Below, one piece after another: positions 32,926-42,004 of a DNA stretch of 42,836 bases. The notes beneath the pieces are model-generated. The model ran no database searches. It was not told the DNA's origin and was given only the letters and a program-made list of their open reading frames with translations. The stretch's first letter is position 1. Every line of letters starts with the position of its first letter. The position numbers and the translations under genes are program-made. This DNA comes from Acidobacteriota bacterium (GTDB lineage: Bacteria > Acidobacteriota > Vicinamibacteria > Vicinamibacterales > UBA2999): positions 1 through 42,836 of the forward strand of contig JAUSDY010000115.1 in the NCBI GenBank assembly GCA_030650395.1, in the 5' to 3' direction.

Positions 32926-33156
32926 TTCGCAACACCCTCTCTCACCGCCATGCTGGCACGTCGTCGGATGCACGGACAGCCCGTCCGGCCCTAACGCCTT
33001 CTGCGTGCACGTGCACCAGTAATGCGTGGCGTCGTAGCGATCGTAGAACTTGAACTCGTCGGGATCCGGCACCGACATCACGTACATGCCCTTGTGCCGC
33101 AGGTTGCTGCAGTGATGCTCGTTGACGAGCGGCGAAGCGGGCTTTGGAATATCCAT
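32923..33156 (-). CDS. Small Cys/His-rich protein
   Basis: This 77-residue protein of unknown function has two HC or CxC clusters: NEHHCSNLRHKGMYV near 13-27, WCTCTQKALGPDG near 47-59, and a C-terminal TCQHGGERGCCE. Nine or so Cys/His residues suggest a metal or Fe-S site. ATG at 33156 with AAGGA 7 bp upstream on the minus strand. It follows the FAD subunit of the oxidoreductase by 80 bp, with an AACTCTTAACTC hairpin between. An accessory role for the oxidoreductase is possible but unproven. Confidence 0.75.
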   Translation of the reverse strand: MDIPKPASPLVNEHHCSNLRHKGMYVMSVPDPDEFKFYDRYDATHYWCTCTQKALGPDGLSVHPTTCQHGGERGCCE

Positions 33157-33172
33157 AAGTAGATCCTTGTAG

Positions 33173-33244
33173 TGCAGAGTGAAGAGTTATGAGTTGAGAG
33201 CTTCTGCGTGTCCTCTTAACTCGCAACTCTTAACTGTTAACTCC
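33173..33244. repeat. AACTCTTAACTC inverted microrepeat
   Basis: A left arm GAGTGAAGAGTTATGAGTTGAGAG (33176-33200 region) and a right arm of CTCTTAACTCGCAACTCTTAACTG (33213-33244) are inverse to each other. The right arm supplies the final codons and the TAA stop (33237-33239) of the FAD-subunit gene. Confidence 0.8.
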
Positions 33245-34283
33245 ACGCGACGCCTGCGGCGCGGAGTACGGCTCTCTTGACTGCGGTCTTGGCGACGCGA
33301 ATCTTATATGCGTTGCCGCTCATCGGCTTCGCGCTCGCCAGCGCGGCGTTCGCCGCTTCGACGGCAATGGCTTCGGTGATGGTCTTGCCGGCCAGCACGC
33401 GCTCGGCGGCTTGCGACCGCCATGGCACCGGCGCCACCGCGCCCATTACCAGTCGCGCCGACTTCACGGTCTGGCCGCTCATCACCAGGTTGACCGACGC
33501 TGCCGCCAACGGCCAGTCGTGCGACTGCTTGAATCGCACTTCGTATCCGGCGCTACGTTGGCCGGGCGCAGGCAGGATCACGTGCGTGACGATCTCATTC
33601 GGCTGCAGCACGCTCTCGCCGTAGAGATTCGTGTTCGGCATCTGGAAGAACTCGCCGGCATCGATGTCGCGCGACCCGTTGGGTCCGGCGACGCGGAACT
33701 TGCCGCCGTAGGCGATCACCGGCACCGCGAGGCTCGACGGGTGCACGATGTGGCAGGGCCCGTCGCCGAAGATGGCGTGAAACTGGTTCTCGCCTTCCAC
33801 CGCAAAGCAGCGCGAGCCGCCCTTCTTGAGGCAGTTGAACTCTTCGTTCCGAAAGTACCAGCAGCGCGGGCGCTGCATGATGTTGCCGCCGACGGTGCCC
33901 ATGTTCCGGATCTGCGGCGTGCCGACACTTTCTGCCGCGGTGGCGAGCGCCGGGTACATCTTCCTCACCAGCACGTTGTCCGCCAGGTCGGCGATCTTCG
34001 TCGCTGCACCAATGCGAATGCCAGAGTCGGCTCCGGCGATCGTCTGATCGAGGCCCTTGATGCTGACGATGCGATCGGGAGAGACGATGTAGTCCTTCAT
34101 CAACCCGAGGAGGTCCATACCCCCCGCCATTGGTAAAACTCTGGCCGCCTGCCCTGAGCGAGCGACGCTCTGAGCATCGCTCAAAGCGTCGCGAGTCGAA
34201 GGGTCGCGCGTCGAAGGGGCAGTCGAAAGGGCGGCAACCGCTTCTTTCTCGTTCGCCGCGGTGACGTAGGCAAAGGCTTTCAA
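33237..34283 (-). CDS. PaoB-type FAD/[4Fe-4S] subunit of aldehyde oxidoreductase
   Basis: This 348-residue FAD-binding subunit belongs to the molybdenum hydroxylase family. The FAD motifs are MAGGMDLLGLMKD and MGTVGGNIMQRPRCW. Four cysteines (RPRC, FNC, SRC, GPC) match the ligand pattern of the [4Fe-4S] cluster that marks E. coli PaoB (YagS) and is absent from classical xanthine dehydrogenases. Residues about 21-48, just before the FAD loop, are encoded by a palindromic repeat inserted in frame (STRDALSDAQSVARSGQA). ATG overlaps the stop of the molybdenum subunit by 4 bp. It transfers electrons from the Fe-S subunit to the acceptor. Confidence 0.9.
   Translation of the reverse strand: MKAFAYVTAANEKEAVAALSTAPSTRDPSTRDALSDAQSVARSGQAARVLPMAGGMDLLGLMKDYIVSPDRIVSIKGLDQTIAGADSGIRIGAATKIADLADNVLVRKMYPALATAAESVGTPQIRNMGTVGGNIMQRPRCWYFRNEEFNCLKKGGSRCFAVEGENQFHAIFGDGPCHIVHPSSLAVPVIAYGGKFRVAGPNGSRDIDAGEFFQMPNTNLYGESVLQPNEIVTHVILPAPGQRSAGYEVRFKQSHDWPLAAASVNLVMSGQTVKSARLVMGAVAPVPWRSQAAERVLAGKTITEAIAVEAANAALASAKPMSGNAYKIRVAKTAVKRAVLRAAGVAWS
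34150..34231. repeat. In-frame palindromic element, copy A
   Basis: The core at 34150-34203 runs from TGCCCTGAGCG to GTCGAAGGG, with inner perfect stems GCGACGCT/AGCGTCGC and TGAGC/GCTCA around ATC. Two short tail repeats of GTCGAAGGGG follow to 34231. It lies inside the coding region of the FAD subunit (minus strand) and encodes STRDALSDAQSVARSGQA. Other copies are at 34827-34879 and 40469-40514. Confidence 0.9.
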
Positions 34284-36490
34284 TTCGTGCCTCCTGCTCG
34301 CTCGAGCTCCGTCAGTAATCTGTCAGGCGTGATCGGAATCGACCGCAGCGTCACACCGGTGGCGTTGCGGATCGCGTTGGCCACGGCGGCCGCGGTGGCC
34401 ACCGCCGGCGGCTCGCCAATGCCGATGACGCCGCGCTCCGGCTGATCGACCAGCACGACGTCGATCTCCGGAATGTCAGACTGGCCGGCCATGTGGTACC
34501 ACTCCATGTTCGGGTTCACCATGTTGGCGGTGTTGCGATCGAGGATGCGCTCCTCGAACACCGCATAATTCAATCCGCTGATGATCCCGCCGTAGCACTG
34601 CGTCTCCGCCGTCTTGGCATCGACGATCAAGCCGCAGTCCTGCACGCAGACGATCTTCCTGACCTTGGTGATGCCGGTCTCGATGTCGACCTCGACGTCG
34701 GCAAACTGCACGCCGCTCGTGCCGCCGGCCGAAAGCCCGCGCTCCCATTGACCGTCGACCGACACCGGAATGGTGCCGAGCAGGCGACATGCATCGCGCC
34801 ATGAAATGCTGCGCGATGAGGGAGCCTGTCCTGAGCGAGCGGCACTCTGAGCATCGCTCAGAGGGTCGCGAGTCGAAAGACTTACCAAAACGGTGCCCAC
34901 GCCCATGCTGATCTGATCGACCGGCACGCCAAGCTGCGGCGCAATGCGCTCGAACAACGCATCGCGCGCCTTGCCCGCCGTCACCCGCATCGCCGGCATC
35001 ACCGCGGCAGCGGTGGTCGATCCGCCGGATCCGGGAGCGAACGGCTGGTTGCTGTCGCCAAGCTCGATCGTCACCTGGTTGACCTCGAGGCCCAGCGTTT
35101 CGGCGACGACCATCGCCATGATCGTGCGATTGCCGGTGCCGATGTCCTGCGTGCCGCAGCGCATCACGACGCTGCCGTCGGACCCGATCTCGCAGTGCGC
35201 CCTCGCGCCCTGGCCCGCGCCGCCCCAGCGGTTCGCCGAGCAGCCCAGCCCGCGCTTGATCGGCCCCGGCGTCGGATCGCCGGTGACGTGGCGGCTCTTC
35301 CAGTTGATCCGCTCCGCGCCCATCGGGAAGTACTTCGCCCACATCGCGTTGGGCGCAAGCGGCGGCAGGTTCTTCAGCCGGAACTCCATCGGATCCATCC
35401 GGACGCGATCGGCGAGCTCGTCCATCAACACTTCCGTGACGAAACATCCTTGCGGATGCCCCGGCGCGCGCATCGCGCGCTGCTGGCCGGAGTTGATGTA
35501 GACGTCGGTGTGCGTGCGCCTGCGGTTCGGGAACGTGTAGATGTACGGCAGCGGGTAATCGGAGCCCGCGCCTGCGCCGCCAGTGCCCCAGGTTTGCGCA
35601 TCAAAGGCGGTGAGCTTGCCGTCGGCGGCGACACCGGCGCGGACCCGCGCGAAGGCCGATGGCCGATTGCCGGTGGTGAGATGCTCTTCCTTGCGATCGA
35701 GCATCATCTTCACCGGCGCGCCGGCCGCCTTTGCGACACGCGCGCAGAGCAGGCCCTGGATGTCGGGCCCGAACTTGCTCCCGAACCCGCCGCCCATGAA
35801 CTCGGTGATCACGCGGACGTTGGCCTGGGGGATCTTGAGCCCCGCCGCAAAGCCTTCGCGCGTGCCATGCACGGCCTGCGTCGACACCCACGCCGTGAGG
35901 TTCTCGCCGTTCCACTCGCAGATGCAGCCGTGCGTTTCGAGCGAGGTGTGCGTCTGCACCTGTGTCGAGTACGTGCCTTCAACGGTGTGCGCAGCAGCCG
36001 CAAAGCCGGTGTCGAGATTGCCGTCTTCCTGGGCCGTGCCGCGCCGGGTGTTCGCCGGCGTGAAGACCTGCGGCGCTTCCGGCCGCATCGACTGTTCGAC
36101 GGTCGCCAGCGCCGGCAGCACGTCCCATTCCACCTTGATCAGTCGGAGCGCATCGGCGGCCTGTTGCTCGGTTGCGGCGGCGAGCGCGCCGATTTCTTGG
36201 CCCGGATACAGCACCTTGTCGCCCGGCTTGATGGTGATGAGGAGCGCCTTCACGCCCGGTGCCTTCTCCGCGGCCGTGGCGTCGATGCTCTTCAGCCGCG
36301 CGTGCGCGTGCGGCGATCGCACGATGCGGCCGTACAACATGCCCGGGCGCAGGATGTCGTACGAGTACTTCGCGCGGCCCGTGACTTTCAACGGGCCGTC
36401 GATGCGCGAGACGCGCGTGCCGATCAGCCGCGGCTTCTCGGGCCACGCGTACTTGGGATGCTGCGCGGGCGCCGGCGCTTGACTATCCAC
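34280..36490 (-). CDS. PaoC-type molybdenum-binding subunit of aldehyde oxidoreductase
   Basis: This 736-residue molybdopterin subunit of the xanthine dehydrogenase family oxidises aldehydes or N-heterocycles to acids at a Mo site. Features: RVSRIDGPLKVTGRAKYSYD at the N-terminus, FMGGGFGSKFG, the cofactor loops GCSANRWGGAGQGARAHCEI and GSGGSTTAA, and the catalytic Glu E693 in GIGEPPAV (E692 in E. coli PaoC). The GTG start at 36490 overlaps the Fe-S subunit stop by 8 bp; the in-frame extension to 36562 lies inside that gene. Residues near 537-555 (STRDPLSDAQSAARSGQA) come from an inserted palindromic repeat. It would be co-exported with the Tat-tagged Fe-S subunit. Confidence 0.92.
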   Translation of the reverse strand: MDSQAPAPAQHPKYAWPEKPRLIGTRVSRIDGPLKVTGRAKYSYDILRPGMLYGRIVRSPHAHARLKSIDATAAEKAPGVKALLITIKPGDKVLYPGQEIGALAAATEQQAADALRLIKVEWDVLPALATVEQSMRPEAPQVFTPANTRRGTAQEDGNLDTGFAAAAHTVEGTYSTQVQTHTSLETHGCICEWNGENLTAWVSTQAVHGTREGFAAGLKIPQANVRVITEFMGGGFGSKFGPDIQGLLCARVAKAAGAPVKMMLDRKEEHLTTGNRPSAFARVRAGVAADGKLTAFDAQTWGTGGAGAGSDYPLPYIYTFPNRRRTHTDVYINSGQQRAMRAPGHPQGCFVTEVLMDELADRVRMDPMEFRLKNLPPLAPNAMWAKYFPMGAERINWKSRHVTGDPTPGPIKRGLGCSANRWGGAGQGARAHCEIGSDGSVVMRCGTQDIGTGNRTIMAMVVAETLGLEVNQVTIELGDSNQPFAPGSGGSTTAAAVMPAMRVTAGKARDALFERIAPQLGVPVDQISMGVGTVLVSLSTRDPLSDAQSAARSGQAPSSRSISWRDACRLLGTIPVSVDGQWERGLSAGGTSGVQFADVEVDIETGITKVRKIVCVQDCGLIVDAKTAETQCYGGIISGLNYAVFEERILDRNTANMVNPNMEWYHMAGQSDIPEIDVVLVDQPERGVIGIGEPPAVATAAAVANAIRNATGVTLRSIPITPDRLLTELERAGGTN
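34827..34879. repeat. In-frame palindromic element, copy B
   Basis: It runs from TGTCCTGAGCGAGCGG to GTCGCGAGTCGAAAG with an 8-bp perfect stem CTCTGAGC/GCTCAGAG around ATC. It lies in the coding region of the molybdenum subunit, in the same orientation and reading frame as copy A, and encodes STRDPLSDAQSAARSGQA between VSLS and SWRDACRLLG. Confidence 0.9.
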
Positions 36491-37079
36491 GAGCCACCCC
36501 CTTCGCCGAGAGCGCGGCCTTGAGCACACCGATGTTCGTGCCGCATCGACACAGGTTTCCATCCAGAGCTTTCTTTGCCTGATCCGGAGTCGGGTTCGGC
36601 GTCTTCTCGAGCAGCGCGACCGTCGCCATCACGAAACCCGGCGTGCAGAAGCCGCACATCAAGCCGTCGTGGTCGCAGAACGCCTGTTGCACCGGATGTA
36701 GAGTGCTGCCTTGCGACAGACCGTCGACCGTGCGGATGTTCTTGCCCTGCGCCTCGACCGCGAGCATCGAGCAGGAGTAATAAGTGCGCCCTTCGATGAT
36801 GACGGTGCACGCGCCACACGCGCCGCGATCGCACACCCGCTTCGGGCCCGTGATGTCGAGACGAGTGCGCATGGCGTCGAGCAGCGTCACGCGCGGCTCT
36901 ACCTGCAGCTGATGGCGCCGGCCATTGATCGTCAGCGTGACCGGCGCATCGCCGGGGCCGATGGCGGCGGGCCCTTGAGCAGCCTCACCCTCCCGGACCC
37001 CCGCAACGACGGCGGTGGCAATCGACCCCACGCCCACGGTTTTGAAAAAGTCCCGTCTGGAAACGTCTTTCTCTTCCAT
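36483..37079 (-). CDS. PaoA-type [2Fe-2S] subunit with Tat signal
   Basis: This 198-residue iron-sulfur subunit carries a twin-arginine signal SRRDFFKTVGVGSIATAVVAG (7-27), indicating export of the folded heterotrimer to the periplasm, as for E. coli PaoABC. The ferredoxin domain has CDRGACGACTVIIEG plus YYSC, and the helical domain has CGFCTPGF and NLCRCG, the ligands of the two [2Fe-2S] clusters. The start at 37079 opens the Tat signal; the longer open frame upstream is only 18-nt repeat sequence. It is the first gene of the Fe-S, Mo, FAD order with overlaps of 8 and 4 bp. A molybdenum-cofactor chaperone gene is not in the window. Confidence 0.92.
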   Translation of the reverse strand: MEEKDVSRRDFFKTVGVGSIATAVVAGVREGEAAQGPAAIGPGDAPVTLTINGRRHQLQVEPRVTLLDAMRTRLDITGPKRVCDRGACGACTVIIEGRTYYSCSMLAVEAQGKNIRTVDGLSQGSTLHPVQQAFCDHDGLMCGFCTPGFVMATVALLEKTPNPTPDQAKKALDGNLCRCGTNIGVLKAALSAKGVARG

Positions 37080-37109
37080 CCCGGAAGAATAACCCCTCGG
37101 GATACTTTC

Positions 37110-37242
37110 GGGAGGCACTTCTTGTCGGGAGGGAACATCTTGTCGGGAGGGAAACTCTTGTCGGGAAAATGCGCACCGGCACCTCGACAAGAAGTGCCCT
37201 CCCGACAAGCAGTGCCCTCCCGACAAGCAGTACCCTCCCGTC
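37110..37242. repeat. 18-nt tandem inverted array
   Basis: Three direct units GGGAGGGaaCATCTTGTC (37110-37126 of 17 nt, then 37127-37144 and 37145-37162) are followed by a 23-base spacer and three inverted units GACAAGCAGTGCCCTCCC (37186-37203, 37204-37221, 37222-37239). The arms are near-perfect inverses. It lies between the divergent Fe-S subunit and CHRD genes, starting 31 bp upstream of the former, so it occupies their promoter region. The same family is at 6670-6729. Confidence 0.95.
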
Positions 37243-37398
37243 ACCGTCCGTACGCGCCCCGTAATGACTTTCGCGCCGCGAAACCCGGCCATGCGGCAAA
37301 AGGCGATATTCGGGGGCGCCCGGTGAAATGGGCCTTGGCGCGCATCCTGCTTAGCCACCCTTGCGCCACAGCCATTGCTGGGCAAAAGGAGTTTCGAG

Positions 37399-37896
37399 AT
37401 GCGACGTGCACTTTCTCTGACTATTGCAATGACCGCCGGAATGCTCGCGCTGGCCGCGGCGCCGGCAGCGGCTCAGTCGTTTACTTTGACCGCACAGTTG
37501 TCGGGCGCCGGCGAAGCCACTCAGGTCGCCAACGGTGTCAACACCGGCGCCTTCGGTGACGCCACCGTCGTCCTCAACCTGACGGCGCAGACGGTGACGT
37601 GGACCGTTCGCGTCTTCAACCTGCCCAGCGGCGTGACGGCAGCCCATATCCACGTCGGCGCGCCCGCAACCCCGGGGCCGACCGTGGTGAACTTCACGGT
37701 GGTCGCGAACACCTCGAACGACTTCAGCTTCACAGGCACCGCCGCGTTCTCCACCTTCACCTTGCGGCCCGATCAGGGAATCCGCTCCCCCGAAGACATG
37801 GTGCAGGCCATCCTCGGCGAAAACACGTACATCAACGTTCACTCCACGGTGAACCCCGGCGGCGAGATTCGCGGTCAGCTCAGACTCAGCCGATAA
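37399..37896 (+). CDS. CHRD domain secreted protein
   Basis: This 165-residue protein has signal peptide MRRALSLTIAMTAGMLALAA (cut near AAAQS) followed by one CHRD domain: FTLTAQLSGAGEATQVANG, AHIHVGAPATPGP with the characteristic AHIH, and the end YINVHSTVNPGGEIRGQLRL. CHRD domains occur in chordin and in bacterial exported proteins; their function is unclear. ATG 37399 is chosen because AAAGGAG lies 6 bp upstream. The stop TAA is the first block of 13-nt repeat array locus 3. Confidence 0.92.
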   Translation: MRRALSLTIAMTAGMLALAAAPAAAQSFTLTAQLSGAGEATQVANGVNTGAFGDATVVLNLTAQTVTWTVRVFNLPSGVTAAHIHVGAPATPGPTVVNFTVVANTSNDFSFTGTAAFSTFTLRPDQGIRSPEDMVQAILGENTYINVHSTVNPGGEIRGQLRLSR

Positions 37897-38050
37897 GTTC
37901 CCCACGGAGGTTCCCCACAGAAGTTCCTCACGAAGGTTCTTCACAAGGGTTCGTCGTGCGGCGAACCTTCGTTGAACCCTCGTGAGGAACCTTCGTGAGG
38001 AACCCTCGTCCGGAACCTTCGTATAGAACCTCATGAGGTAACATTCGTGC
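37895..38050. repeat. 13-nt tandem inverted array, locus 3
   Basis: Four left units (AAGTTCCCCACGG, AGGTTCCCCACAG, AAGTTCCTCACGA, AGGTTCTTCACAA) at 37895-37946 lead into a central palindrome GGTTCgtcgtgcgGCGAACC. About five right units AACCTTCGTGAGG and variants follow, from 37964 to about 38045. This copy is more degenerate than loci 1 and 2. It fills the gap between the CHRD stop and the glycosyltransferase start, both on the plus strand. Confidence 0.92.
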
Positions 38051-38053
38051 CTC

Positions 38054-38761
38054 ATGAAACTGTCGGTCGTCATGCCTGCTTACAACGAGCAGGCCACCAT
38101 CCGCACCATCGTCGTACGCGTGCTCGCAGTGGATCTCGGCCCGATCGAGAAAGAGCTCGTGATCGTGGACGATGGGTCGACTGACGGCACGCGCGACATC
38201 CTCAAGAACATCGACGGCAAGAACGGCGTGCGCGTCCTGTTTCAACCGCACAATCAAGGCAAGGGCGCGGCGGTGTGGCGCGGCATCCAGGAATCGAGCG
38301 GCGACATGGTGATCATCCAGGACGCCGACCTCGAGTACGACCCGCGCGAGTACCCGGCGCTGATTCGCCCGATCCTCGACGGTGAAGCCGACGTGGTGTA
38401 CGGATCGCGCTTTCTCGGCTCGCCGCGCGGCCACCGCGTGCTGTACTTCTGGCACTCCATCGGCAACCGGCTGCTCACCACGCTGTCGAACATGTTCAGC
38501 GACCTGAACCTCACCGACATGGAGACCTGTTACAAGGTGATGGTGAGGAGTGTCGCGAGCCGGCTGGATCTGCAGTCAAAAGACTTCGGCATCGAGCCTG
38601 AAATCACGCAGAAGGTCGCCGCCATGCGCGCGCGCATCTACGAGGTGCCGATCTCGTACCACGGCCGCACCTATGAAGAGGGAAAGAAGATCGGATTGAA
38701 GGACGGCTTCAAGGCCGTCTACACGATTCTCCGCTTCTGGAACTGGACTCCTAAGAGTTAA
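38054..38761 (+). CDS. Family 2 glycosyltransferase (DPM1-like)
   Basis: This 235-residue GT-A enzyme resembles dolichyl/undecaprenyl-phosphate mannose synthases: SVVMPAYNEQATI (4-16), VDDGSTDGT (38-46), NQGKGAAVWRGI, the metal-binding DAD at 90-92, and GSRFLGSPRGHRV. No C-terminal membrane helices are present, so it is soluble or peripheral. It probably transfers a sugar from an NDP-sugar to a lipid phosphate for envelope glycan synthesis; donor and acceptor are unknown. The last codons (CCT AAG AGT TAA) and the stop are part of an AAGAGTT microrepeat, so the C-terminal PKS residues are repeat-derived. Confidence 0.9.
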   Translation: MKLSVVMPAYNEQATIRTIVVRVLAVDLGPIEKELVIVDDGSTDGTRDILKNIDGKNGVRVLFQPHNQGKGAAVWRGIQESSGDMVIIQDADLEYDPREYPALIRPILDGEADVVYGSRFLGSPRGHRVLYFWHSIGNRLLTTLSNMFSDLNLTDMETCYKVMVRSVASRLDLQSKDFGIEPEITQKVAAMRARIYEVPISYHGRTYEEGKKIGLKDGFKAVYTILRFWNWTPKS

Positions 38762-38790
38762 GAGTTAAGAGTTCAGAGTTAACAGTTCAG
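38756..38790. repeat. GAGTTAAGAGTT direct microrepeat
   Basis: Several AGAGTTA/AGAGTTC units start in the last two sense codons of the glycosyltransferase gene, include its TAA, and run to 38790. Same family as 31961-32060 and 33173-33244, here with one orientation only. Confidence 0.75.
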
Positions 38791-38795
38791 AAACG

Positions 38796-38859
38796 AAAAA
38801 CCCGATACTCCACACCCGCGGTCTCCCATGAAGAGCCCCCGCCGCGATGAAGTATCGGG
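38796..38859 (-). terminator. Terminator of the OmpA-like gene
   Basis: CCCGATACT (38801-38809) pairs with AGTATCGGG (38851-38859), with an additional inner pairing around 38817-38821 and 38842-38846. On the minus strand the stem is followed by TTTTTCGTTT (complement of 38791-38800). It lies 24 bp past the OmpA stop. Confidence 0.7.
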
Positions 38860-38882
38860 TCCAGCTGTGCAGAACTGCAGCT

Positions 38883-39569
38883 CTACGCCAGCACTTTGAT
38901 GACGACGCGGCGGTTCTGCGCGCGGCCGTCGCGGGTCTTGTTCGGCGCGATCGGCTTCTCTTCGCCGTAGCTGATCACGTTGATCTTGTGCAGCGGCACC
39001 AGGTGCTTCTCGTAGAGATACCGCTTCACCGACTCGGCGCGCTGCAGGCCAAGCGCGTTGTTGTACTTCGTATCGCCGACGTTGTCGGTGTGGCCTTCGA
39101 TCTCGACCCACACGGCCTTCGGGTCGGCCTTGAGCTGCGCCACCATCTGGTCGATCGCGCCCATGGCGTCGTCCGGCAGTTCCGCCTTGCCGAGCTTGAA
39201 CTTGCCGCGATCCTCGCTCAACACGGTTTCGAAGATCAGCTTGCGGGTGGCCGCTTCGACGCCGGCCGCGCGGGCATCGGCGCTCTTGCCGATCGCCGCC
39301 GCCGAGTTGGCCGCGCTGGTTGCGGAGTTCGCGGTCTGCTGCGCCGCGCCGGCCGCCGCGTTCGCCGCACCCGCCTTCGAGTCGACCTCGACGATGCGGC
39401 CTTCAGCCGTCCGCACCCGCTCCTGGGTCTCCTCGAGCGACTTGCCCATCGTGCCGACCTTTTCGTTCACTTCACCGACCGAGGTGCGCACGAACTTCTT
39501 CGTCGCGCACGCCGGCGCGACGCTCAGGGCCGCCGCGAAAACACCGACTACGAACAGGGAGTTACGCAT
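38883..39569 (-). CDS. OmpA-family lipoprotein
   Basis: This 228-residue protein has a lipoprotein-type signal MRNSLFVVGVFAAALSVAPAC with Cys after APA, a long Ala-rich heptad region (about 30-105; KVGTMGKSLEETQERVRTAE and then AGAANAAAGAAQQTANSATS) that should form a coiled coil as in Lpp/alanine-zipper proteins, and a C-terminal OmpA/Pal peptidoglycan-binding domain (VEIEGHTDNVGD, NNALGLQRAESVKRYL, DGRAQNRRVVIKV). It probably links the outer membrane to peptidoglycan. ATG 39569 is preferred (AAGGAG 8 bp upstream) over ATG 39575 (2 bp). It follows the VWFA gene by 19 bp, so the two are probably cotranscribed. Confidence 0.9.
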   Translation of the reverse strand: MRNSLFVVGVFAAALSVAPACATKKFVRTSVGEVNEKVGTMGKSLEETQERVRTAEGRIVEVDSKAGAANAAAGAAQQTANSATSAANSAAAIGKSADARAAGVEAATRKLIFETVLSEDRGKFKLGKAELPDDAMGAIDQMVAQLKADPKAVWVEIEGHTDNVGDTKYNNALGLQRAESVKRYLYEKHLVPLHKINVISYGEEKPIAPNKTRDGRAQNRRVVIKVLA

Positions 39570-39588
39570 ACTCATTCTCCTTATGAAA

Positions 39589-40578
39589 CTACTGACCACC
39601 GGCTCCCGCGACGTAGCCGCCGCGCGTCCGCACTACAAAATCCTTGTCCGACGTTCGAATCTCGATCGGGTGCCAGCCGGGCGCGGTGCCGGGCTCAAAC
39701 GCGATCAGGTAGAGATGCCGCAGCTCGTCGATCACCGATCGGGCCGCCTTGAAAGCCGAAGCCGAGGTGCTGCTGTAATGCAACGCACCCCCGGTCCATC
39801 GCGCCAGGTCTTCGATCGTCCCCACCGACGGCGGCGCCGTGCGCTTCGAGCCGGGGGTGGCATGATCCGAACCCGGGTCGTCTATCGACAGCACCGTCGC
39901 GATGATGTAAACCGGCACGTCAATCGCCGCGGCCTTCGCCGACACCTCGGCGGGCGACAGGCGGCTGGCGGTATCGATGCCGTCGGTCAGCACGACGACG
40001 GCGCGGCGCGGAAACGGACGCAATGCCACGCGCTCCGCTGCCGCCAGAATCGCATCATGTAACGAGGTGGCCCCGAATGGATCGACCTCCCCCAGCGCGC
40101 CCTTCAGGGCACGCGTATCGACCGTGAACGGGGCCACCTCGCGTAGCCGGCTGTCAAAAGCAAACAGTCCGGCTTCGTCGCGGCCCTCTACCAATCCAGA
40201 GATCAGATGGTGGGCCGCAAACTTGGCGGCGGTCGTGCGGGCGGCCACATCCATGCTGCCGCTCACGTCGAAAAGAATCGCCAGGCTCATCGGCGCCTGG
40301 TCGGACCGGAATTCGCTGATCGAGCGGCGCTCGCCGCGGTCGACCACTTCGAAATCCCGCTTGGTCAGGTCCTTCACCAATCGCCCTTTGTTGTCGCGCA
40401 CCGTCGCGCTCACCGTCACGAGGTCGACCCCCGACCGGAACGTTGCCTGTGCGTTTTCCGCGGTCCCCTGCCCTGAGCGAGACTCGGCCGTGCCGTCCGA
40501 GTCGAGTCGAAGGGCTTGCGCCAGGCCAGAAGTGGCTGGTAGAAGCGTTAGCGCGCTGGCGAGGAGGAACCGCCGCAT
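39589..40578 (-). CDS. VWFA domain secreted protein, acidobacterial type
   Basis: This 329-residue protein has signal peptide MRRFLLASALTLLPATSGLAQ. Then come a repeat-derived linker (SDGTAESRSGQG), the family entry motif FRSGVDLVTVSATVRDNKG with LTKRDFEVVDRG, and a VWA domain with an intact MIDAS: ILFDVSGSMD (DxSxS), the GATSLHDAI threonine region and VLTDGIDTAS. Unlike the paralogue at 22805-24727, this one should bind a metal. It is smaller and lacks the Ig-like tail. Role unknown, likely periplasmic ligand binding. The upstream ATG at 40620 is an alternative without a signal peptide. Probably an operon with the OmpA lipoprotein. Confidence 0.88.
   Translation of the reverse strand: MRRFLLASALTLLPATSGLAQALRLDSDGTAESRSGQGTAENAQATFRSGVDLVTVSATVRDNKGRLVKDLTKRDFEVVDRGERRSISEFRSDQAPMSLAILFDVSGSMDVAARTTAAKFAAHHLISGLVEGRDEAGLFAFDSRLREVAPFTVDTRALKGALGEVDPFGATSLHDAILAAAERVALRPFPRRAVVVLTDGIDTASRLSPAEVSAKAAAIDVPVYIIATVLSIDDPGSDHATPGSKRTAPPSVGTIEDLARWTGGALHYSSTSASAFKAARSVIDELRHLYLIAFEPGTAPGWHPIEIRTSDKDFVVRTRGGYVAGAGGQ
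40469..40514. repeat. In-frame palindromic element, copy C
   Basis: It runs from TGCCCTGAGCGAG to GAGTCGAAGGGC and shares both ends with copies A and B; its inner stem is different (GACTCGG/CCGAGTC, 7 bp). It lies between signal peptide and mature start of the VWFA gene and encodes SDGTAESRSGQG. The RSGQ end is read in the same frame as in copies A and B. Confidence 0.8.
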
Positions 40579-40754
40579 GCCCGCTCTATCTCCAAGTTCC
40601 TTGCCAAACAGGTAACTCATTTGTATTCAGTATTTTACGCTTTACCGTAGAGCTTTAGAAGACGCTCCGGGGATGTAAGGATGTAGCAATTACATGGCAG
40701 CAAGAGCCAAAGTGCGTACGGTGCGTACGGGTTCCAATGGTGCCAAGCCGGGTG

Positions 40755-40774
40755 GGCGGCACTTCAGTGCCGCC
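40755..40774. repeat. GGCGGCAC-TTCA-GTGCCGCC hairpin
   Basis: A perfect 8-bp stem with a 4-base loop lies 18 bp upstream of the chosen aminotransferase start. A 9-bp direct repeat GTGCGTACG lies just before it (about 40711-40729). It may be a REP-like element or a leader hairpin. Confidence 0.65.
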
Positions 40775-40792
40775 GAGATAAGATCACGCGAG

Positions 40793-42004
40793 ATGCCTGT
40801 GACGTCTGCGCCGATCAGAACCGCAAAGCGCGTCGATCGATTTACCTACGCCATCCGCAACATCGTCGGCGAAGCGAAAAAGGTCGAGCAGACCGGCATG
40901 ACGGTCCGCTACCTGAATATCGGCGACCCGAATCAGTTCGGCTTTCTCACGCCGCCCCACTTGATCGAAGCCGTCGTGAAGGCGATGCGCGACGGGCACA
41001 ACGGCTACACGCCGTCGCCTGGAATTGCGGAGGCGCGCGAGGCGGCCGCCGCGGATTTCGTGTCGCGGGGCGTGAACGTGTCGCCCGATCGCGTGTTGAT
41101 CACGTCTGGAACCTCGGAAGGCATCGAGCTGGCGCTGACGGGAATCGTCGACGAAGGCGAAGAAGTGCTGGTGCCTTCACCGACCTATCCGCTCTATACC
41201 GCGGTGCTGGCGAAGATCGGCGCGCAGCCGGCGTACTACCGCACCGATCACACGCGCCAGTGGATGCCTGACCTCGATCACATCCGCAGCTTGATCAATC
41301 CCAAGACGCGCGCGCTCGTGGTGATCGATCCGAATAACCCGACCGGGGCGATCTATCCCGAGAAGATGCGCCGCGATCTGATCGCGCTGGCCGAAGCGCA
41401 CGGCCTCGTGATCCTCGCAGACGAGGTCTACGGCGACCTGGCCTATGACGGCGCCGTGCCGCCCATGGCGGCGCTCGACAACGACGCGCCGATCATTTCC
41501 TACTCGAGCCTGTCGAAGGCCTACCTCGCCCCTGGCTGGCGCGCGGGCTGGATGGCCGTGGGCTCGTCACCGCGTCTCGATCCGGCGTTGGCCGCCATCA
41601 AGAAGCTCGCCGACGGACGCCTGTGCAGTCCCGGTCCCATGCAATATGCCGTGACCGCCGCGCTCACGGGCGATCGCTCGCACCAGGTATCGTTCCGCCA
41701 GCAACTGCGTGAGCGCGCGGACCTCACGACGGCGCGCATCAACGCCATTCCCGGCATGTCGTGCGTGGCACCCCGTGGTACGTTCTACGCCATGCCGAAG
41801 GTCGAGCTCCCCAAGGGCAAGACCGACGTCGACTTCGTGCTGGGGCTGCTCCGCTCGAAAGGCATTCTCACCGTCTACGGCTCGGGCTTCGGCACCGCGC
41901 CCGAAGACGGCTTCTTCCGCATCGTCTTCCTGGCCACGCCGAAAGAGCTCGGCGCCATCTATGACGATGTGGATGCGTTCACACGAGCGTTCCTTGGCGT
42001 CTGA
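40793..42004 (+). CDS. Class I/II PLP aminotransferase (alanine/LL-DAP type)
   Basis: This 403-residue fold-type I aminotransferase of the AlaA/MtnE-like branch has the N-terminal YLNIGDPNQFGFLTPPHL, YTPSPGIAEAREAAA, the cofactor site ITSGTSEGIELALTGI, IDPNNPTGA, LADEVYGDL, the PLP lysine K242 in YSSLSKAYLAPGWRAGW, and the carboxylate-binding Arg in FFRIVFLATP. It probably interconverts alanine or another amino acid with its keto acid. ATG 40793 is preferred because the family N-terminus begins there; the frame is open back to 40694 through a hairpin-containing leader. A permease gene overlaps its 3' end. Confidence 0.9.
   Translation: MPVTSAPIRTAKRVDRFTYAIRNIVGEAKKVEQTGMTVRYLNIGDPNQFGFLTPPHLIEAVVKAMRDGHNGYTPSPGIAEAREAAAADFVSRGVNVSPDRVLITSGTSEGIELALTGIVDEGEEVLVPSPTYPLYTAVLAKIGAQPAYYRTDHTRQWMPDLDHIRSLINPKTRALVVIDPNNPTGAIYPEKMRRDLIALAEAHGLVILADEVYGDLAYDGAVPPMAALDNDAPIISYSSLSKAYLAPGWRAGWMAVGSSPRLDPALAAIKKLADGRLCSPGPMQYAVTAALTGDRSHQVSFRQQLRERADLTTARINAIPGMSCVAPRGTFYAMPKVELPKGKTDVDFVLGLLRSKGILTVYGSGFGTAPEDGFFRIVFLATPKELGAIYDDVDAFTRAFLGV

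Follow-up and report, generated by a model that had tools for sequence, protein, structure and literature searches.

A dispersed family of hairpin elements carried in frame by genes of an acidobacterial genome

A palindromic element of about 50 bp lies in three different genes of an Acidobacteriota bacterium, and the three genes are read through it; what kind of element can do this, and is it kept for its DNA, its RNA or the peptide that it encodes? The question arises from a stretch of 42,836 nucleotides, called here the window, in which we located the following features:

34147..34202, + strand: element copy 1, variable middle part (X) at 34162-34192, within the FAD-subunit gene; folded with DNA parameters
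34203..34231, + strand: degenerate right-end repeats (family D7) adjoining copy 1, not in the congeners G001 and G007
34824..34879, + strand: element copy 2, X at 34839-34869, within the molybdenum-subunit gene; ends slightly degraded
40466..40513, + strand: element copy 3, X at 40481-40503, within the VWFA gene, past its predicted signal peptide
33237..34283, - strand: host gene 1, FAD-binding subunit of a PaoABC/XdhB-like molybdenum hydroxylase (PaoB/XdhB-like)
34280..36562, - strand: host gene 2, molybdenum-binding subunit (PaoC-like); gene-caller start 36490
39589..40620, - strand: host gene 3, acidobact_VWFA protein (TIGR03436); gene-caller start 40578

The inserts of the window and their host genes

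An earlier note on this DNA had proposed that the element interrupts the FAD, molybdenum (Mo) and VWFA genes without breaking them, and this is borne out: the three copies, all on the + strand with their hosts on the - strand, are inserts of 48-56 bp lying in frame where the note had placed them, and translation of the host ORFs is free of stops across each. The units are built of GCCTGY or a variant of it, then CCTGAGCGA, a hairpin X, and GAGTCGAAGG or GAGTCGAAAG; the ends of the Mo copy are imperfect (TCCTGAGCGA and GAGTCGAAAG). The shared peptide is also as had been claimed: the FAD and Mo copies translate as STRDxLSDAQSxARSGQ and the VWFA copy has only the terminal RSGQ in common with them, its other end reading LRL.

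Copy 1 raises a question of gene start. Our crude codon-based gene caller starts the FAD gene at 34130 and so leaves the copy outside it. The stretch from copy 1 to the TTG at 34283 is nevertheless conserved in G001 and G007, two genomes of the same genus that we used for the comparison of sites, and this conservation favours the upstream start: the gene would begin at TTG 34283 rather than at 34130.

As the earlier reading led one to expect, distant homologues do not carry the Mo insert. It is missing from 8/8 homologues of at most 66% identity (alignment A1) and present in both congeners, with different middle peptides. The inserts were placed on PaoABC by sequence comparison. In an AlphaFold2 model of the Mo subunit (from the 11-sequence alignment that includes these homologues, mean pLDDT 70.3) the insert, residues 562-580, mostly has a pLDDT below 50 (564-575 and 577-581); it is modelled between two strands and partly drawn as a helix. 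For the Mo host, to which the model applies, this is no more than suggestive of an insert sitting in a loop.

The window also contains two intergenic inverted arrays. That at 37114-37243 is made of an 18-bp unit, CGACAAGCAGTGCCCTCC, and its complement, with three copies per arm, and could potentially form a large hairpin. That at 37897-38029 lies between an ORF ending at 37896 and an ORF starting at 38054; its 13-bp unit is GAACCCTCGTGAG and its 56-nt arms are 79% complementary.

Constant ends, variable but paired middle

The genome of the window, G000 (acidobacterial, 5.41 Mb in 180 contigs), was searched whole for CCTGAGCGA followed by TCGAAGG after a gap of 0-30 or 31-60 nt. This gave 61 and 55 matches; the reversed patterns used as controls gave 0 and 0, so that the matches are not due to chance. 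Once merged they make 115 places, each read with 22-nt flanks, of which one (C18:26907, 69 bp) was treated as a chance match, leaving 114 exact-ended dispersed copies. This count is one of exact ends, and copies with mismatched ends, e.g. the Mo copy, come in addition.

The consensus of the unit is GCCTGY-CCTGAGCGA-X-GAGTCGAAGG, sometimes with an added G at the right end, and its length is mostly 24-60 bp. The ends hardly vary between copies, unlike X: in the 102 copies that remain when the 12 without an exact GAGTCGAAGG are left out, 23/24, 19/20 and 12/12 X are distinct in the 48, 45 and 39 nt classes respectively, and there are a few small subfamilies with common arms. What X does retain is pairing. 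Its symmetric Watson-Crick pairing averages 84% over 99 copies (three of the 102, with an X below 8 nt, do not enter the mean) against 32% in 200 shuffles, whose maximum is 37%; at most stem positions several or all four types of Watson-Crick pair are found. Folded with DNA parameters, the + strand forms a foot of CCCT/AGGG and CGA/TCG with GAG bulges, followed by X; the two ends differ in sequence and these are their only pairings. In the Mo copy the outer pairs of the foot are lost. The commonest triloop is GAA (10/48 odd-length X), and CTTG (8) and TTTT (5) are the commonest tetraloops among 48 even-length X.

How are these copies placed relative to genes? By our own codon-usage script, which gives a coding fraction of 88% for the fetched stretches, 73 of the 115 places are inside ORFs, 9 run across an ORF end and 33 are intergenic. 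The earlier note would have been contradicted by a mainly intergenic family. This is not what we find: without C18, 72/114 copies are intragenic by the same calls, albeit under the 88% coding fraction, so that genes hold most copies yet are hit less than random landing predicts. Length depends on location, since 63/72 intragenic copies are divisible by three compared with 16/33 intergenic ones (Fisher p = 4.7e-5, C18 left out). The single reading frame that had been proposed holds for the three window copies at their RSGQ end and does not extend to the family, most of which is spread over four frames: the 73 places divide into 24 opposite-1 (C18 included), 17 same-2, 16 opposite-0, 14 opposite-2 and 2 same-0 (strand and phase), i.e. 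54/73 opposite to the strand of the host gene. The consensus ends can be translated without a stop in five of the six frames. As for the intergenic places, 30/33 are between codirectional or divergent genes and 1/33 between convergent ones. From 49 mid-gene copies we chose 20 hosts for a Pfam scan; matches span the insert or stand on both sides of it in 13/20, on one side only in 5 and are lacking in 2. The hosts flanked in this way include GyrB, PriA, NadA, a lipoyl ligase, a nickel insertion protein, an SMC-type ATPase and a penicillin-binding protein.

Comparison with the congeners reveals both empty and occupied sites. At 21 sites of G000 (C18 left out) the orthologous stretch of G001 or G007 lacks both end motifs. 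In five cases the lengths differ by precisely the element and a further 6 nt: 54, 54, 24, 53 and 60 nt, at C101:4647, C152:29250, C48:155087, C156:43378 and C19:31152. At the other 16/21 the difference takes another value, through other indels or poor alignment, which counts against the reading favoured below. No clear target-site duplication was seen in the empty-site alignments. The VWFA insert is likewise absent from 7 aligned orthologues of the same genus.

The FAD and Mo sites are occupied in both G001 and G007 by copies of the same length (50), with another X and other middle peptides. Over 11 orthologue pairs of equal length, 88 arm pairs are unchanged, 33 are changed on both arms and still paired, and 22 are changed on one arm or broken. 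These 11 pairs are not independent, FAD and Mo giving three each, and for one of them (C48:39776) the match relies on the right flank only; three pairs of unequal length were left out. In five copies of the relatives, picked because a copy is present (FAD and Mo in G001 and G007, C152 in G001), the ends differ at 1/95 positions while the flanks differ by ~10-18%. Two sites go against this picture: the C51 copy (42 nt) has an identical X and mismatched ends in G000 and G001, and at C94:5779 G001 seems to hold a decayed copy. Furthermore, in G000 the X of the FAD copy and that of the Mo copy are separated by differences at 4/31 positions, and each from its orthologues by differences at 10-16/31; sequence transfer from one site to another, or recent descent from one source, therefore also occurs.

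The two strands of the hairpin are not equivalent. On the + strand of the element G-T mismatches exceed A-C mismatches by 47 to 15 in the 86 copies that remain when those below 70% pairing are left out, and by 58 to 20 unfiltered. Opposite-strand hosts give 28 v 8 (p=0.0012), where folding of the mRNA would predict the reverse; G007 gives 14 v 3, and 124 pooled distinct hairpins 62 v 21. Weaker counts, which speak against the asymmetry, come from same-strand hosts (6 v 3) and from G001 (3 v 3). In addition X alone is predicted to be stabler on the + strand in 59 of 95 copies and less stable in 20 (DNA parameters). Because the G-T excess follows the strand of the element whatever the strand of the host, this suggests that the element acts as folded single-stranded DNA and not as mRNA. 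The excess could on the other hand arise from a strand-biased C-to-T change.

Relation to known repeats and possible explanations

REPINs have conserved ends and a variable spacer for which length and hairpin capacity are needed, compensatory changes being common; in SBW25, 14 of 1,067 sixteen-mers overlap genes (PMC3116915). The element likewise combines two conserved ends with a variable hairpin spacer showing compensatory changes, and is dispersed as are REPINs, which are thought to be mobile. It differs from them in its ends, which are 15 and 10 nt long and of different sequences instead of two inverted REPs, in being without GTAG, in that no RAYT flank was found, and in having most of its copies in genes (own gene calls), at variance with SBW25. 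Intragenic REPs are known, also in DNA repair genes, and no transposase is known for CGTC REPs (PMC3733652); REPs inside tnpAREP genes keep the reading frame (PMC6006769). With GTAG and CGTC REPs the element shares the form of a short imperfect palindrome and many dispersed copies, some of them in genes. However, no unpaired GTAG or CGTC stands at its end (115 places with their 22-nt flanks), it is mainly intragenic (72/114), its stem is nearly unique to each copy and its convergent placement is rare; contrary to the GTAG REP/REPtron arrangement, it flanks a Y1 gene on both sides at 0/55 loci. A class 3 Y1 group in Acidobacteria is accompanied by REP-like structures with a CnGA foot, which number about 600 in Solibacter usitatus (PMC6006769). 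The likeness is one of description only: same phylum (among others), high copy number, and a CTGA in the element that fits CnGA. To take such elements as undescribed in this phylum, as the earlier note was inclined to do, is unsafe, given these REP-like structures with Y1 genes.

The same note had drawn a parallel with Rickettsia palindromic elements (RPEs), which are about 150 bp long (PMC10969869) and said to lose repeat identity (PMC6649704). The parallel is a partial one: the element is palindromic and its in-frame insertions hit unrelated genes, some of them housekeeping genes, but it is mostly 24-60 bp, has no conserved peptide or single frame, and keeps its pairing at most shared sites. 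PARCEL coding repeats are also palindromic DNA translated inside genes, in their case as 75-nt tandem protein repeats with a conserved motif (PMC2996958); our element occurs as single units without a conserved protein motif. REP/REPIN-type elements thus fit the element more closely than RPEs do, and it departs from both classes in the features that define them. In the literature, element strings of 14-17 nt matched one paper, on insect RNAi judged by its title, and among the matches listed no title or abstract opening describes the element. Already published are REPINs whose arms compensate each other, REPs within genes and an acidobacterial group that resembles REPs.

Which enzyme might move such units? 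Y1 transposases of PF01797 come to mind. G000, the element-richest genome, has one such gene, at 61 bits for a cut-off of 80 (REP_Tyr_transpos), and 30/39 relatives have some. The numbers of Y1 genes and of elements correlate over 40 genomes (rho 0.41, p 0.009; corrected for genome size 0.36, p 0.022), in a calculation that ignores phylogeny, and one genome, G039, has 8 elements and no Y1 match, which goes against a link. A RAYT-like arrangement was rejected: among 55 distinct Y1 loci, a subset of the Y1 places, none (0/55) has elements on both flanks; a single complete element occurs at 2/55 (L177, L295) and a single end motif at several. These 55 loci thus tied no enzyme to the element. A class-3-like HUH/Y motif was absent from the 2.7 Mb searched, with most of G000 outside it; the CTGA mentioned above is in the 5' end of the element. 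TnpAREP of E. coli requires a bulge, a lower stem and the fold, and no given sequence of the upper stem (PMC8266576).

With modest confidence we favour a REP/REPIN-like, non-autonomous family of very small hairpins that would move as single-stranded DNA and, like RPEs, be tolerated in reading frame, with X drifting by compensating pairs. The + strand is computed to fold as CCCT-gag-CGA-X-gag-TCG-a-AGGG, i.e. a conserved bulged foot with X above it as the free part of the stem. This foot and the fold would be what a trans-acting protein for folded single-stranded DNA, probably a Y1 HUH enzyme, recognises when it moves the unit, each insertion adding 6 nt plus the element as seen at the five empty sites. 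With five of the six frames free of stops and with lengths that are mostly divisible by three, a copy landing in a gene can be tolerated as a tag of 8-21 residues (as the gene models show), probably in a loop, as suggested for one host. As only the pairing of X would matter, X would drift by compensating pairs, whether the fold is under selection, the palindrome is repaired by template switching, or both apply. If mobility were all that is selected, however, copies would not stay preserved in place across species. A more ambitious version of this reading, which we advance tentatively, is that these are mobile hairpins recognised by shape, with arms devoid of sequence information, adapted to genes by frame-compatible lengths and four frames, and whose fold is selected in place across species, including in the essential gyrB, priA and nadA.

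Could mutation be the main force that maintains the hairpins? Template switching between the arms would re-perfect the palindrome (quasipalindrome correction) without the need for present mobility or function. The excess of double changes (33) over single or broken pairs (22) at shared sites is in line with it, as is the C51 copy, which keeps its X though its ends decay; hairpins are reported to arise and persist through template switching, multibase compensatory changes included (PMC8794818), and the same mechanism has been proposed for palindromes in coding sequences of Nematomorpha (PMC6649704). It leaves unexplained the conserved ends of the other shared copies (1/95), the dispersal of copies with empty orthologous sites and the G-T/A-C strand asymmetry, and we consider it rather unlikely as the main cause. 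Template switching and mobility may well act together.

An mRNA hairpin (terminator, attenuator or processing site) would agree with the stable folds and with the 33/115 intergenic places, 30 of them between codirectional or divergent genes; it is made improbable by the copies inside ORFs, which are the majority and in 54/73 cases opposite to the gene, by a G-T excess that tracks the strand of the element and not that of the mRNA, and by the lack of any Rfam match at gathering thresholds over 33000-41000. A homologue of the Rickettsia palindromic element, or selection for a common peptide tag, would account for in-frame insertion in unrelated genes and for the STRD...RSGQ common to window copies. 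But four frames are in use (24, 17, 16 and 14 of 73, with 2 in a fifth), therefore no peptide is common to the family, and the peptides of X differ at orthologous sites; we regard this possibility as very improbable. Recombination sites resembling integron attC, which are strand-specific, folded and have a variable terminal stem, recall the conserved bipartite ends, the variable paired middle and the strand asymmetry. The attC core boxes are RYYYAAC/GTTRRRY, and the ends of the element are without them; its copies are moreover mostly single and often inside genes, which makes this the least credible of the alternatives.

What a folded-DNA enzyme reads is put to a natural experiment here, with more than 100 sequence-independent versions of a single hairpin in one genome. 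Close relatives offer both occupied and empty sites, which makes the role of palindromic inserts in protein evolution testable; the family also offers a case for telling selection on a DNA fold apart from template-switch repair.

Occurrence in other genomes

The pattern is present in 31/40 genomes (G000 and its relatives). A stricter pattern is found in 48/396 genomes of the phylum, mostly of the window's own order plus one distant family (f24). In another set of 40 genomes, reached through matches of the Mo subunit, exact ends occur in 6 (L032-L037), all of the acidobacterial group, and in none of the others, i.e. L045 and L046, titled Acidobacteria, and the other 32. Five of the six, L033-L037, are titled Acidobacteria; L032 is titled Cyanobacteria, yet its sequences are the same as those of G007, of the window's genus, and the title looks wrong.

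A looser pattern, CCTGAGC N0-30 GTCGAAGG, was found in 22/38 genomes, with 78 places in L047, titled Betaproteobacteria, for a control of 0. Judged from such pattern matches, a related repeat, a wider relative of the element, may be abundant outside Acidobacteria.

In IMG/VR, 48 stretches have the element ends. The hairpin pattern is not repeated there: only 2/19 X of at least 12 nt pair at 70%. One of these stretches (L343) bears the element ends seven times within 14 kb, in copies of only 26-28 bp. Close spacing is also seen at G027:C45:161952-162180, where four copies of 40-41 bp follow each other in a row with start spacings of 48, 47 and 94 bp, suggesting local amplification.
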